Shown in pieces: positions 27,824-33,512 of a DNA stretch of 64,000 nucleotides. The DNA comes from Desmonostoc vinosum HA7617-LM4 (GTDB lineage: Bacteria; Cyanobacteriota; Cyanobacteriia; Cyanobacteriales; Nostocaceae), in contig JAHHHC010000016.1 in NCBI GenBank assembly GCA_019359515.1, positions 1 to 64,000 on the forward strand, read 5' to 3'. The position numbers and the translations under genes are program-made. The notes below the pieces were generated by a model. It searched no databases, was not told where the DNA came from, and saw only the letters and a list, made by a program, of their open reading frames with translations. How positions within the stretch are numbered: the first letter of the stretch is position 1; each line of letters starts with the position of its first letter.

Positions 27824-28510
27824 TTAACAAATTGGAATTCTCAGCGTTTGTTCCATCGGAATACCACTCCAAGAGTTGAACACTTGGTTCCAAAGGCTAG
27901 CGACTTCCCAAATAGTACGGGCGTATAGCTGTCCACAAGACGAATCGCGATCGCATTGTGGAATCAAATCAAGCCCTAAAATTTGGTGTTTCATATCAGC
28001 TGCTTGATGAACTAGCCAATAACCTTTAGGAATCAACCCCAACTCCGCCAACTTAGGGTTGACAGCCGAGTAGAAATCACATGCGATTCCCTCTGTGATT
28101 AAATTTAGTGTAATAATTTGATGTGCTACGGGTTCACGCATGACCGAGTGAATAAAATACGAGCCTAAAGCCAGAGTTTCTAATGTTGGTGGTACTGAAG
28201 TTGGTTCTTCATCAGTTTTTAACAAGCCAAACTCATGCATCCAATTAGCCAGATCTTCTGGGTGTGTTACTTCTTCAGCAGCATGTTCGCCAAAAGCGTC
28301 GCGAAAACGCGGGTCTTGGCAACTACCGTAGCGTAATGCTACTGCCGCTGTAAAGTCGCAAGATAAATAATACAACTGCCGAATCCATTTCAAGTCTGCG
28401 GGAGAATCAGCCACAGCTACTGTTTTGTAAAACACACCGCTTCTAACAATATTTAGATACTTTTGTGCTAAGTCTCTAAGCCATTGCATGGGCATTGTAC
28501 GAGTTAGCAT
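27824..28510 (-). CDS. Heme-oxygenase-like fold protein (iron-containing redox enzyme type)
   Basis: 228 residues, predicted all-helical. Carboxylate/His clusters fit a heme-oxygenase-like di-metal oxidase: FGEHAAEEVTHPED (about 95-108), LITEGIACDFY (about 158-168) and HQAADMKHQILGLD (about 188-201). No heme-oxygenase signature is seen, so heme cleavage is not claimed. AGGAG precedes ATG, and just before it is a hairpin TTTTTACCC-TTTGTT-GGGTAAAAA (28520-28543). It is divergent from arsM-arsS; a link to arsenic metabolism is possible but unproven. Confidence 0.7.
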   Translation of the reverse strand: MLTRTMPMQWLRDLAQKYLNIVRSGVFYKTVAVADSPADLKWIRQLYYLSCDFTAAVALRYGSCQDPRFRDAFGEHAAEEVTHPEDLANWMHEFGLLKTDEEPTSVPPTLETLALGSYFIHSVMREPVAHQIITLNLITEGIACDFYSAVNPKLAELGLIPKGYWLVHQAADMKHQILGLDLIPQCDRDSSCGQLYARTIWEVASLWNQVFNSWSGIPMEQTLRIPIC

Positions 28511-28911: not shown

Positions 28912-29880
28912 ATGACTTATCTCGAAACAGCGGCTCAATTTTACAGTGAAGCTGCCCAAACACCGCAAGTTGGGCTTTGTTGCGTTCAAAGCACACCTCT
29001 ACAACTACCTGGACTGCAAATTCCTTTACTGATGCAGGAAATGAACTATGGTTGTGGCACCACTGTTCACCCTACCGAACTAGGCAACCAACCAACTATC
29101 TTGTATGTCGGTGTTGGGGGTGGGTTAGAAGCGTTGCAGTTTGCTTATTTTTCTCGCCGTGCAGGTGCTGTAATTGCCGTAGAACCCGTTGCACCTATGC
29201 GGGAAGCTGCTGCACGCAACCTAGAAATTGCTGCAAAAGAAAACCCTTGGTTTGAGACTAGTTTTGTAGAAATTCGCACAGGTGACGCTTTCAACTTACC
29301 TGTGGCTGATGCTTCCGTCGATATTGTGGCGCAAAATTGCCTCTTCAATATTTTTGAACCAGAGGATTTAAACCGTGCTTTGAAAGAAGCATATCGCGTA
29401 TTAAAACCAGGTGGACGCCTGCAAATGAGCGATCCGATCGCAACTCGTCCAATTCCGGCACATCTGCGAGCCGATGAGCAACTACGAGCCATGTGTTTAT
29501 CAGGCGCTCTTACCTATCAAGAGTATACTCAGCAGATTATAGACGCTGGCTTTGGTCAAATTGAAATTCGCGATCGCCGCCCTTATCGCCTATTAGATGC
29601 TCCAACTTATAACCTCCCAGACAACCTACTTCTAGAAAGTTTAGATTCTGTCTCTTTTAAAGTTGCTATTCCAGAAGATGGAGCTTGTATTTTTACTGGA
29701 AAAACAGCAATATACGCTGGGGCTGAAACATTTTTTGATGACGCCGCAGGTCATTTACTGCAACGCGGTATTCCTGCCGCAGTGTGCGATAAAACTGCTG
29801 CTAAACTTGCAGTTTTCAATCCCCAAGAAATCATTATTACTGATTCAACCTGGCATTATAGTGGCGGTGGTTGTTGTTAA
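28912..29880 (+). CDS. arsM: Arsenite S-adenosylmethionine methyltransferase, arsenosugar type
   Basis: 322 residues. The SAM-binding fold has ILYVGVGGGLEALQ (motif I, about 63-76), ending AVEPV, and LKPGGRLQMSD (about 164-174). Cys candidates for arsenite are Cys23/Cys24 (GLCCVQ), Cys48 (YGCGTT), Cys143 (QNCLF) and Cys195; the C-terminal extension ends GGGCC. It methylates As(III). Coupling to arsS, 58 bases downstream, marks it as the arsenosugar-pathway ArsM. The product is cytoplasmic. The upstream palindrome may be its operator, but no ArsR is in the window. Confidence 0.9.
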   Translation: MTYLETAAQFYSEAAQTPQVGLCCVQSTPLQLPGLQIPLLMQEMNYGCGTTVHPTELGNQPTILYVGVGGGLEALQFAYFSRRAGAVIAVEPVAPMREAAARNLEIAAKENPWFETSFVEIRTGDAFNLPVADASVDIVAQNCLFNIFEPEDLNRALKEAYRVLKPGGRLQMSDPIATRPIPAHLRADEQLRAMCLSGALTYQEYTQQIIDAGFGQIEIRDRRPYRLLDAPTYNLPDNLLLESLDSVSFKVAIPEDGACIFTGKTAIYAGAETFFDDAAGHLLQRGIPAAVCDKTAAKLAVFNPQEIIITDSTWHYSGGGCC

Positions 29881-29938: not shown

Positions 29939-30955
29939 ATGAATCAAGTCAAATTCCATTTACCAATGCAAACTAAATCACTATTAACACCATTTAAAAA
30001 TAAACTCAGTTCTCCTTTGAACAAAAAGGAGATTCGTGTCCTACAAATTAATTTAGGTAAGCGATGTAATCTTGCCTGTACACACTGCCATGTTGAAGCT
30101 GGGCCAAAACGTACAGAAGAACTTTCTTCAGAAGTTTGTGCAAAATTAATTGAATTAATTTACAGATTTCCCCAAATCCAAATTATCGATTTGACTGGCG
30201 GCGCACCAGAAATTAATTACGGTTTTAAACCATTGTTAGAAGCAGCCAAGGCAAATAATAAACAGATAATTGTTCGGTCAAACTTAACTATCTATTTTGA
30301 GGATGGTTTTGGTGATTTACCTACATACTTTGCTCAACATCAAGTGAGAATAATTGCCTCTCTACCTTGTTATTTAGCAGATAATGTTGATCAGATGCGT
30401 GGTACTGGCGTTTTTAATAGTTCAATTAAAGCTTTACAATGGCTTAATCAACTTGGCTACGGTCAAGATCCAAACTTAATTTTAGACTTGGTATACAATC
30501 CCCAGTTACCCACAAGTGAAAAATTTTCCTTGGCTCCTGAACAATCCAACCTAGAACGAGATTACAAAATGTTCTTGCAAGAACATTTTGATATTGTATT
30601 TAACAATCTCTATACCATCACTAACCTACCAGTTGGTAGAACTCAAATGCATTTGGAGCGCAAAAAACTTTACAGCAGCTATTTGCAGTTTTTGGAATCG
30701 CATTTTAATCCCAGCACTGCTGAGCATTTAATGTGTCGCGATGAACTTTCGATTGACTATTTAGGCAATGTATATGATTGCGACTTTAACCAAATGATGA
30801 ATCTGCCTGCAAAAACTCACAATGGTGAAGTTCTAACAGTTGCTAAATTGCTAGAAGCTGATAGTTTAGATTTAATTGATGAGGTGCAAACAGCAGCTTA
30901 TTGCTATGGTTGCACAGCTGGGTGTGGTTCTAGTTGTGGTGGAGCCTTGGTGTAA
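29939..30955 (+). CDS. arsS: Arsenosugar biosynthesis radical SAM protein ArsS
   Basis: 338 residues. The radical-SAM cluster is CNLACTHC (Cys43, Cys47, Cys50), followed by DLTGGAPEI; the C-terminal half (DUF3641-type) ends in CYGCTAGCGSSCGGA, a second Cys-rich motif. ArsS joins a 5'-deoxyadenosyl group to dimethylarsinous acid on the path to arsenosugars. In some relatives a selenocysteine occupies the tail motif; here every position is Cys. Same operon as arsM. Start ATG 29939 without a strong ribosome site. Confidence 0.92.
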   Translation: MNQVKFHLPMQTKSLLTPFKNKLSSPLNKKEIRVLQINLGKRCNLACTHCHVEAGPKRTEELSSEVCAKLIELIYRFPQIQIIDLTGGAPEINYGFKPLLEAAKANNKQIIVRSNLTIYFEDGFGDLPTYFAQHQVRIIASLPCYLADNVDQMRGTGVFNSSIKALQWLNQLGYGQDPNLILDLVYNPQLPTSEKFSLAPEQSNLERDYKMFLQEHFDIVFNNLYTITNLPVGRTQMHLERKKLYSSYLQFLESHFNPSTAEHLMCRDELSIDYLGNVYDCDFNQMMNLPAKTHNGEVLTVAKLLEADSLDLIDEVQTAAYCYGCTAGCGSSCGGALV

Positions 30956-31124
30956 AATTAGTTGAGGTAAGAAATTAAAAGCTGTCGCATTTAAAACTTT
31001 GTCTTGGTAATTGCTACTTTTTCCTTGATCCCTATATTCCAGCCATATCAAGAAATCAAGAGTTTTTAATTGAATCCATAACTATCTCTAGATGTCAGAG
31101 AATGATTATTTTGTTACAACTTTT

Positions 31125-31232
31125 GTTACGGATACATACGTAACAGAGAAATGGGTTTATGATGATGTTAGTTAAGTCTCCTCACACCACACCAAAAAAC
31201 CGTGGAATCCTATAAATTTCCACGGTTTTTAT
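31125..31232 (+). ncRNA. yfr1: Yfr1-like small RNA, copy 1
   Basis: A 5' hairpin GTTACG-GATACATA-CGTAAC (31125-31144), a single-stranded stretch with CTCCTCACAC (31178-31187) then CACACC, and a 3' hairpin CCGTGGAA...TTCCACGG (31200-31225) with TTTTTATTTTTT. This is the build of Yfr1, the cyanobacterial regulatory RNA whose CUCCUCACAC box pairs with ribosome binding sites. The first box base (A in the classic ACUCCUCACAC) is T here. The 5' end is approximate. Confidence 0.75.
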
Positions 31233-31332
31233 TTTTTAATTGCAGAAAAAACAATTCCCTCTTTCCTCTCTACACTGATATAGATGTCATGTTGGTGATC
31301 ATGATGGCGTTGCAAAGAATTCTGTTACCAAA

Positions 31333-31437
31333 ACTGTTACGAGCGTGCGGCAGCTTGGCAGTTACTTTATGATGATACCTAGTTAAGCTCCTCACACCAC
31401 ACTAAAAGCCGTGAAACCTCGTGTTTCACGGTCTTTT
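31333..31437 (+). ncRNA. yfr1: Yfr1-like small RNA, copy 2
   Basis: Second copy 210 bases on: a weaker 5' stem (AACTG...CAGTT with CGAGC/GCTTG inside), the shared segment TTATGATGAT then AGTTAAG, CTCCTCACAC at 31388-31397, CACACTAAAA, and terminator CCGTGAAAC-CTCGT-GTTTCACGG (31409-31431) with a T-rich tail. The box and flanks match copy 1, while stems differ in sequence but keep shape, a sign of selection on structure. Confidence 0.75.
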
Positions 31438-31587
31438 TCTTTTATGCCTGGTGATATCATGTCCAGATCATGTCAAACACAATTTACTGAGTGTAGTTCA
31501 CTACCCAATACTATACAAGCAGTTTTTGACTGTGGTGTGCGGCGTATTCATTTATGATCATCATATAAAAATCTCTTTTTTAGCAAA

Positions 31588-32544
31588 ATGTCCGATTGTA
31601 GTTACGCCATTTTAGGAACTGGTGCATTAGGTGGCTTTTATGGTGCCAAACTGCAAAAAGCTGGTTTAAATGTCCACTTTTTGCTGAAGAGTGATTATGA
31701 ACATGTCAGTAAATTTGGTTTGGTTGTTGAGTCAAAAGATGGTGATTTCACCCTTAGACAAGTCAACGCTTACAATAATGTCGAAGAAATGCCACAATGC
31801 GATGTGGTGGTGGTAGCACTAAAGACCACACAAAACCATTTATTGCCGCAGATGTTGCCGCCTGTCGTCAAGGATGATGGGGTAGTGTTGGTATTGCAAA
31901 ATGGACTAGCGGTGGAAGAAGAAGTTGCCAATATAGTTGGCAATGCCAGCATCATTGGTGGGTTGTGCTTTCTCTGTTCTAATAAAGTCGGAGCAGGACA
32001 TATCCGCCACCTCGACTATGGACAAATTACATTAGGGGGATATGCCTCTGGTTATGATCCTACTGGGATTACAGATAAGATGCGGCAAATTGCCAATGAC
32101 TTGAAGAGTGCTGGTATTTCAATAGAATTAGCTGAAGACTTATTACTAGGGCGATGGAAAAAATTGGTGTGGAATATTCCTTATAATGGACTGTCTGTAA
32201 TTCTCAACGCTAGAACAGATGAATTAATGTCCTATATCCACACCCACAAACTAGTTGAACAGTTGATGTATGAAGTTGCAGCAGCATCCAAAAGTTGCGG
32301 ACGCATCATTCCTGATAGCTTCATTCAAACAATGCTGGATTACACCGTGAAAATGCAGCCTTATCGTACCAGCATGAAAATCGACTATGACGAAAGGCGG
32401 CCTATGGAAGTAGAAGCAATTTTTGGGAACCCATTACGGAAAGCGCGTTCCTCTGGTGTGGATTTACCGCAGATTAGCTGTATATACCAACAGCTAAAGT
32501 TTTTGGATGAGATGAGAAGAGTGGGAGAGCGGGAAAACGCTTAA
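31588..32544 (+). CDS. Ketopantoate reductase family protein (PanE/ApbA)
   Basis: 318 residues. An N-terminal Rossmann fold binds NADPH through AILGTGALGGFYGAKL (about 7-22). VVVALKTTQNH carries the conserved Lys, LQNGL the Asn, and RWKKLVWNIPYNGLS the catalytic Lys of the C-terminal domain. PanE reduces 2-dehydropantoate to pantoate in coenzyme A synthesis, but several cyanobacterial paralogues exist and other 2-keto acid substrates are possible, so no gene symbol is given. The ATG at 31588 is followed by the typical start. Monocistronic. Confidence 0.85.
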   Translation: MSDCSYAILGTGALGGFYGAKLQKAGLNVHFLLKSDYEHVSKFGLVVESKDGDFTLRQVNAYNNVEEMPQCDVVVVALKTTQNHLLPQMLPPVVKDDGVVLVLQNGLAVEEEVANIVGNASIIGGLCFLCSNKVGAGHIRHLDYGQITLGGYASGYDPTGITDKMRQIANDLKSAGISIELAEDLLLGRWKKLVWNIPYNGLSVILNARTDELMSYIHTHKLVEQLMYEVAAASKSCGRIIPDSFIQTMLDYTVKMQPYRTSMKIDYDERRPMEVEAIFGNPLRKARSSGVDLPQISCIYQQLKFLDEMRRVGERENA

Positions 32545-33005: not shown

Positions 33006-33278
33006 TTTTAGCCTACGCGTGGCGGCTGGTGATAGGCTCGCTACTTTTGGCCCTACTCAGACTAGGTTTTAGAAAAAAACTAACTTTTACCTAAAGTTTA
33101 GGATTTGGCAGACCACATCCACTAATTTTGGATTCATATTTATTCTTTCTAACGGTACAAGACTAATAAATAAAAATAGTGCAAGTTAAGAATAGAGCAA
33201 TAAAGATAGATTCAGGTGTTGTTTTTAATTGCATCGGCTCTACCTTTAAATCTGATATTTAATACAGGAAAGATTATC

Positions 33279-33512
33279 ATGACACAGCAAAATGCTGCCC
33301 AACTTTTGAAGGCTGTGAAGGAAAATCAAGCATTAAAAGAAAGACTAAAAGCAACAGAGAACCCAGAAGCCTTTATTAAGATTGCTCAAGAGAGTGGCTA
33401 TGACTTCTCAAAGGAAGAACTAGAGAGAGAAATTAGCAAATTATCAGATGAAGATTTGGCAGCCATTGTCAATCCAGGCTGGGGAACTAGACGACACATT
33501 CATCCTAGATAA
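33279..33512 (+). CDS. Nif11-class RiPP precursor peptide
   Basis: 77 residues from ATG at 33279 (AGGAAAG just upstream); a longer frame back to 33216 has no support. The leader is Nif11-like: AAQLLKAVKENQALKERLKA, then FIKIAQESGYDFSKEEL and ISKLSDEDLAAI. The usual Gly-Gly is replaced by NPGWG and the putative core is only about 13 residues, NPGWGTRRHIHPR, without Cys. Nif11-type leaders steer maturation enzymes or exporters; none is adjacent, so it is an orphan. A 181-bp structured element begins 22 bases after its stop. Confidence 0.82.
   Translation: MTQQNAAQLLKAVKENQALKERLKATENPEAFIKIAQESGYDFSKEELEREISKLSDEDLAAIVNPGWGTRRHIHPR

Follow-up and report, generated by a model that had tools for sequence, protein, structure and literature searches.

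A conserved tandem pair of predicted Yfr1-motif small RNAs, separate from Yfr1, downstream of arsM-arsS in Desmonostoc vinosum and its relatives

The marker of the cyanobacterial small RNA Yfr1 is an ultraconserved 11-nt sequence, ACUCCUCACAC (PMC2190773). When Nostoc PCC 7120 Yfr1 was tried in E. coli on 11 reporters of its targets, 10 were lowered via the core that concerns us here and one rose; in mraY and murC, the site of pairing was mapped to the ribosome-binding region. Predicted targets include OprB-like porins, and the RNA Yfr2 binds Yfr1 (PMC6974561). The same source describes Yfr1 as abundant and barely regulated, and its authors pose modulation of the Yfr1 network as an open question (PMC6974561). 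Two porins are Yfr1 targets in Prochlorococcus; Yfr2 binding has been published for both Yfr1 and Yfr10 (PMC6778093). Small RNAs that carry the Yfr1 motif besides Yfr1 itself are reported from other cyanobacteria, including TSS 2515196r and TSS 3750139f of Nostoc PCC 7120, which are set beside Yfr10 in a source that also names Syr5 (PMC6778093). Additional Yfr1-motif small RNAs are therefore not new as such. The two predicted RNAs analyzed here, A and B, resemble Yfr10 and its kind in that they carry the Yfr1 motif but share neither the structure nor the genomic location of Yfr1 and, with 10 of 11 motif bases, can be assigned to that loosely defined class. In Prochlorococcus Yfr10, the motif lies in a loop atop a stem, whereas in A and B it lies in a free 5' tail; the available text of PMC6778093 makes no mention of tandem pairing or of the promoter box described below for Yfr10-like small RNAs.

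On the + strand of the window, by which we mean the whole 64,000-nt stretch of D. vinosum DNA analyzed, CTCCTCACACCACAC occurs twice in exact form, with starts at 31178 and 31388 that are spaced by exactly 210 bp, as the original prediction of tandem Yfr1 copies had described. RNA A (31170..31237, +; ~60-68 nt) would begin with AGTTAAGT and RNA B (31381..31443, +; ~58-63 nt) with AGTTAAG, so placed that the core CTCCTCACAC (31178..31187 in A and 31388..31397 in B, +) lies 7-8 nt from each inferred 5' end. The core was predicted to be 95% unpaired in A and 97% unpaired in B (mean probabilities 0.95 and 0.97), and behind it each RNA has one 3' terminator hairpin and a T run. The hairpin arms (31200-31207 / 31218-31225 in A and 31408-31417 / 31423-31432 in B, +) differ in their stem bases, which also agrees with the original prediction; a simple terminator scan of the + strand listed the hairpin of B and not that of A. 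Assignment of A is based upon model R1 (89.3 bits, with the sequence itself in the model), structure, and pair counts, and assignment of B upon model R2 (84.6 bits, likewise with the sequence in the model), pair counts, and the terminator scan. A -10 box, TATGAT, occurs at 31158..31163 (+) for A and at 31368..31373 (+) for B, and the putative 5' ends at 31170 and 31381 were placed from these boxes; both RNAs are probably transcribed. Comparisons below use a set of related sequences from which L046, which has no small RNA, and near-identical entries were removed before alignment, reducing 101 to 88 (32 A and 56 B); TATNAT occurs at the matching distance in 30/32 A and 55/56 B sequences, window included.

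Gene order in the window is arsM-arsS-A-B-panE. The arsenosugar-biosynthesis arsenite methyltransferase gene arsM (28912..29880, +; NCBIfam NF038099, 572.9 bits, cut-off 400) is followed by the gene for the arsenosugar-biosynthesis radical SAM protein, arsS (29939..30955, +; TIGR04167, 417.6 bits, cut-off 300), and the downstream neighbor of the RNAs is a panE-like 2-dehydropantoate 2-reductase gene (31588..32544, +). Synteny makes arsS the conserved upstream neighbor; PanE was found beside the small RNAs of no relative among L015-L104, where its matches were limited to L032 (the window itself) and L100 (no small-RNA locus). Farther out, a Haem_oxygenas_2 protein (PF14518, an iron-containing redox enzyme) is encoded divergently from arsM at 27824-28510 (-), and a Nif11-like leader peptide RiPP precursor (TIGR03798, 55.5 bits) with the C-terminal residues WGTRRHIHPR is encoded at 33216-33512 (+).

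Related loci support the linkage to arsS and the pairing of the two RNAs. The small-RNA pattern had 50 matches, of which 30 were turned into loci or lay within one. Of the 30 loci fetched in this way, window included, 26 had arsS inside the fetched flanks, and L018, L033, L043, and L044 did not. An ArsS scan of named genomes provided 80 further-scored loci, the best 80 of 240 relatives (Nostoc PCC 7120 is not among the 80), at which copies were counted by hand on the + strand with models R1 and R2, requiring at least 37 bits for R1 and excluding opposite-strand matches, which are often the hairpin read backwards. At least one copy was present downstream of arsS at 53 of the 80 loci (both copies at 22, A only at 14, and B only at 17, with copy type at L113 and L117 assigned from score alone); at the other 27, some at contig ends, no copy was found in the DNA covered. 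In all 22 pairs, A precedes B and each copy scores higher with its own model, although some of these loci also went into building R1 and R2 and the scores are therefore not independent. This constant order and own-model preference point to an old duplication inside this family, which we take, from genome names, to be the heterocyst formers, and bear out the original prediction so far as it held that the two units are tandem small-RNA-like genes that carry the Yfr1 core, arose by duplication, and have a hairpin under selection (see below). Copies in relatives within the family are of type A (AGTTAAGTCTCCTCACAC) or type B (AGTTAAGCTCCTCACAC), each an orthologous group, and the pattern TTAA-N0-3-CTCCTCACAC was found in 157/217 family genomes, chance matches included. 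In genome G102, copy B has its 5' end near 140386 on the minus strand. In G216, transposase-like reading frames (L207:2076-2869) lie between arsS and copy A, and both small RNAs are still in order.

More broadly, at E<=0.01 R1 had matches in 64 of the 243 genomes scanned in the order, a count that includes hairpin-only and opposite-strand matches; among 17 picked R1 sites, the upstream repeat discussed below is absent at L200 and L201 and only weak at L190. R2 matched 42 of 386 genomes at E<=1e-4, five of them in family f47. The f47 matches were rejected, as the three sequences inspected are terminator hairpins without a core, and we therefore claim no distribution outside the order.

The core itself is less constant than the arrangement. 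The original prediction held that the stems differ while the motif box is fixed, which is correct inside the window and does not extend to relatives: CTCCTTACAC occurs in A or B at 14 of the 80 arsS loci, four of these having CTCCTCACATT in B, and L113, L117, and L160 show other core changes. Cores in other families include CTCCTTAGACC, CTCCTCATGC, and similar sequences, and 10 of the 24 RNAs found behind a strict promoter box (see below) lack CTCCTCACAC; lineages with CUCCUCACAC cores and lineages with CUCCUUACAC cores both occur. With so many relatives carrying a degenerate core, what is conserved may be something other than a Yfr1-like set of targets.

The locus is more interesting for its promoter than for its motif box. 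A direct repeat, GTTAC-N7-GTTAC, with a probable regulatory role begins 65 nt before the core of A (31113..31132, +) and 64 nt before that of B (GTTACCAAAACTGTTACGAG; 31324..31343, +). The exact repeat is present in 46/56 B and 15/32 A sequences, window included, and 11 of the 32 A sequences deviate at 3-4 of the 10 fixed bases. Using the strict pattern GTTACNAAAANTGTTACNAG, for which the box of B is the sole match in its own genome, we ran two overlapping scans. Seventeen chosen genomes, picked partly for having RNAs of this kind, contained 13 sites in 11 genomes, and 243 genomes drawn evenly from the order contained 19 sites in 18; together there were 27 distinct sites, and reversed-pattern controls gave 0. 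At 24 of the 27 sites, TCCTY follows 65-68 nt after the start of the box with a hairpin behind it; of the remaining sites, L231 shows a degenerate core in the corresponding position and L216 and L226 have none. In the order scan alone, TCCTY follows the box at 17/19 sites, plus L231. Six of the 17 chosen genomes lack the strict box, and four of these six (G216, G035, G072, and G279) have such an RNA. Thus, the strict box is not universal, yet where present it nearly always marks a predicted RNA of the A/B kind. Because it is nearly private to such RNAs and strictly spaced, a direct-repeat-binding transcription factor probably activates them, and we regard the box as the likely site of a dedicated regulator, mainly for B, for which the case is stronger than for A. 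Like HLR1, the site of the response regulator RpaB, the box consists of direct repeats with a GTTAC-type half-site at a similar distance upstream of the start; HLR1 half-sites, however, are 8-mers 2 nt apart with a period of 10 (PMC9241938), whereas the box has a period of 12, with C or G frequent at the sixth base. The half-site is similar and the spacing differs, and we therefore make no HLR1 claim and name no regulator.

From the sequence, conserved structure, box, neighbors, old A-B duplication, and pairing potential computed here, we infer transcription, start sites, target repression, Yfr2 binding, a regulator, and a signal, and we think it probable that A and B are small RNAs with promoters of their own that repress Yfr1-type targets, are bound by Yfr2, and provide a regulated supply of Yfr1 function. 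Each RNA would be made from its own promoter, comprising the GTTAC direct repeat and the -10 sequence TATGAT, and end at its own intrinsic terminator. Near its 5' end it would expose the unpaired, anti-Shine-Dalgarno-like core CUCCUCACAC, with one hairpin behind, and this core would pair with GUGUGAGGAG-type sequences at ribosome-binding sites and block translation. The targets would be mRNAs of the kind that Yfr1 controls, porins included, and complementary Yfr2 RNAs would bind A and B. A transcription factor that binds the direct repeat would probably turn the RNAs on under some signal, with the stronger case again being B, and the result would be regulated Yfr1 function on top of that supplied by constitutive Yfr1.

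Predicted pairing is consistent with this model. A GGTGTGAGGAG leader lies 11 nt before the start codon of an OprB/SLH iron-uptake porin (L003:1501-3012), and another lies 7 nt before the start codon for a small protein whose N-terminus is signal-like and which matches no family (L005:1501-2012); both are candidate targets of Yfr1 and of A and B. Pairing energies with the porin leader were -24.3 kcal/mol for A (z -5.8), -22.9 kcal/mol for B (z -4.7), and -22.8 kcal/mol for Yfr1, and the second leader gave similar energies and lower z scores (A -2.8, B -3.6), but these two leaders from the same genome were chosen for an exact complement, and their scores are therefore no independent test. Neither A nor B paired convincingly with the leaders of arsM, arsS, and panE (z -2.4 to +1.2; Yfr1 with arsS, -2.9), and the arsenic genes therefore look like neighbors and not targets.

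Yfr2, or Cyano-1 (RF01701), is a likely partner. Its 5' part complements the core, and it carries the complement GUGUGAGGAG and not the core itself. This circuit suggests another role, in which A and B would serve mainly as sponges or competitors within it, taking up Yfr2 or being taken up by it, and not as direct silencers of mRNAs. The published binding of Yfr2 to Yfr1 and Yfr10 (PMC6778093) and the complement in Yfr2 would fit such a role, as would the predicted pairing of B with the two Yfr2 copies of its own genome, which exceeds that of Yfr1 (-24.5 versus -20.7 kcal/mol). A, however, pairs with Yfr2 no better than Yfr1 does (-20.7 kcal/mol), and the core drifts in relatives; we consider a principal role as sponges unlikely.

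Alignment A1 contains 27 of the 32 A sequences, leaving out L017, L049, L064, L066, and L067 (ends cut short by the end-finding rule), and alignment A2 contains 42 of the 56 B sequences, leaving out L049 and L064 (ends cut short) and twelve others that are near relatives or have longer hairpins. The 3' hairpin is the one structure common to these sequences, with 96.7% (A) and 95.5% (B) of hairpin cells paired. Changes on both sides were found for 4/10 pairs in A and 7/10 in B, and in 14 and 23 cells, respectively, versus shuffled means of 2.1 and 5.5. These two-sided changes exceeded most shuffled controls and all slid controls; a count of further pair types in A did not exceed shuffles (9 versus a shuffled mean of 8.1, with 140 of 500 shuffles reaching 9). 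By comparative sequence analysis, then, the hairpin appears to be retained by selection in both A and B. Rows were picked by core and upstream signature, a choice that in part builds the conservation of these positions into A1 and A2; the box-to-core scan begins at the upstream box and is therefore free of this bias.

Selection on the hairpin could be accounted for by a terminator alone, and more weight therefore attaches to the promoter elements (-10 box and upstream repeat) and to the unpaired state of the core. All three exceed what a terminator needs, which argues against an explanation without trans-acting RNAs, namely that the two units are terminators or cis elements 3' of the arsM-arsS operon. 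In the family they mostly lie 150-900 nt downstream of arsS (2397 nt at L106), and this placement, like the strength of the intrinsic terminators, would suit elements of that kind. Box-plus-RNA units similar to A and B, however, occur in families f12, f15, and f18, where the DNA fetched contains no arsS, and we judge the cis-element explanation improbable.

Several results separate the pair from Yfr1. First, the original prediction had offered a search with the Rfam Yfr1 covariance model as a check that would tell against it on failure. That model, RF01116, had no match in the window at the gathering score (38 bits) or at E<=10. By contrast, the canonical yfr1 of the same genome, which served as the positive control (L014), lies on another contig in the order guaB-yfr1-trxA (flanking genes named from sequence, with no family search), scores 61.8 bits, and is the sole RF01116 match of its genome at E<=1. 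Second, exactly one gene exceeded the RF01116 cut-off in each of 80/80 family genomes; in 14 control genomes, RF01116 matched in 4, Synechococcus elongatus included, and exceeded the cut-off in 1. Third, both copies contain 10 of the 11 ultraconserved nucleotides of ACUCCUCACAC, as TCUCCUCACAC and GCUCCUCACAC, with T or G directly before the core in place of A. Fourth, neither guaB nor trxA, one or both of which usually though not universally adjoin yfr1, is adjacent to the A/B locus.

Finally, the 5' stem that the original prediction placed in each segment could not be substantiated. It probably referred to an imperfect inverted repeat at 31124..31145 (arms 31124-31133 / 31136-31145, +), which is present in copy A only and, being upstream of the -10 box of A, lies outside the inferred RNA. 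Copy B has no comparable arm pair in 31300-31389, where there are short palindromes only, and an inverted-repeat search of the 90 nt upstream of each core found just short palindromes or imperfect pairs beyond the repeat of A. An exact 6-bp inverted repeat occurs in this stretch at 2 of 31 related A loci. Folding of the 33 nt up to the core did not differ from that of mononucleotide shuffles (mean z 0.07 for 32 A and 0.54 for 56 B), whereas three canonical Yfr1 genes gave z scores of -3.1 to -3.8 in the same test. Neither A nor B thus has the 5' stem-loop of 6-10 bp that precedes the unpaired stretch in Yfr1.

Yfr1 and the pair do share an unpaired core, CUCCUCACAC, followed by an intrinsic terminator (a 3' hairpin with a U tail), short size, and similar predicted pairing to GUGUGAGGAG leaders, but A and B differ in lacking the 5' stem, in their tandem copies and upstream direct repeat, and in the drift of the core among relatives. 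The same 10-nt core, CCACAC behind it, and the 3' terminator are what speaks for a duplication of Yfr1 proper, complete with 5' stem, core, and terminator; given the silence of RF01116, the missing stem, the different neighbors, the base before the core, and the single over-cut-off gene elsewhere in the genome, between guaB and trxA, this origin is very unlikely, and we reject membership in Yfr1. A and B are, on sequence grounds, predicted Yfr1-motif small RNAs that form a conserved pair separate from Yfr1.

That the motif copies are chance matches is hardly credible: CTCCTCACAC is just 10 nt long and was found four times in the window at <=1 mismatch versus 1.77 expected, but orthologous pairs are present across many genera, with promoter, core, and hairpin all conserved. 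Genome-wide, exact CTCCTCACAC has 14 matches versus 4 for the reversed pattern. Seven of the 14 were identified, namely the window pair, the canonical yfr1, two antisense to Cyano-1/Yfr2, and two gene leaders. The only other pair within 1 kb, on contig C67, is antisense to two Cyano-1/Yfr2 genes and was for that reason rejected as a further Yfr1 pair. Those two genes are themselves in tandem (L006:1438-1514 and 1603-1678, -; RF01701, 53.6 and 53.1 bits), ~164 bp apart, and both begin with UUGUGUGUGAGGAGC, the complement of GCUCCUCACAC of copy B.

One of the RNAs reported from Nostoc PCC 7120 may correspond to this pair. alr3095 is arsM in that strain (PMC5258700). Published primer sequences for PCC 7120 led to two relatives and not to the strain itself; of the four primer sites, three have 0-1 mismatches in the arsM gene of G216 and the remaining one has 5. 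Because G216 has A and B downstream of arsS, TSS 3750139f may be an orthologue of A or B; a search for this coordinate returned no paper, and it does not occur in PMC4734099. The tandem pair, the promoter box, and the linkage to arsM-arsS were not found in the literature that we searched. Tentatively, and with less confidence than in the repression of Yfr1-type targets, we suggest that A and B belong to a separate small-RNA family, present in this family and at least in f12, f15, and f18, with a GTTAC-N7-GTTAC promoter box ~65 nt before a CUCCU-type core, a single hairpin, and a dedicated regulator; it would give the Yfr1 network, constitutive in other respects, a part that can be induced, with the core re-aimed at new leaders in some Nostoc and other lineages. 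A conserved pair with the same core behind its own box would be a second entry point to the Yfr1 network, with a regulator that can be searched for, and drift of the core beside a canonical Yfr1, of which each of the 80 family genomes has one, is a natural experiment on re-aiming an anti-Shine-Dalgarno seed.

Other copies of the motif were seen near some of these loci and elsewhere. A third CTCCTCACAC follows soon after copy B at L066:1809 and at L112, 498 nt after arsS, without the usual upstream sequence or hairpin. An opposite-strand copy of the motif with CCACATAAAAAGCTGTGGATTG is present at L165 (737 nt after arsS, -) and at L019:959 (+), and is possibly a decayed or rearranged copy A. 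L080, L082, L084, L090, L091, L094, and L103 (core at 1501) contain a third class of Yfr1-motif candidates, a form not seen among the exact CTCCTCACAC matches of the window's genome, in which GTTTG or TATTG stands directly before CTCCTCACACCA(T/C)A and another hairpin follows; one might guess that this class is the counterpart of Nostoc TSS 2515196r.
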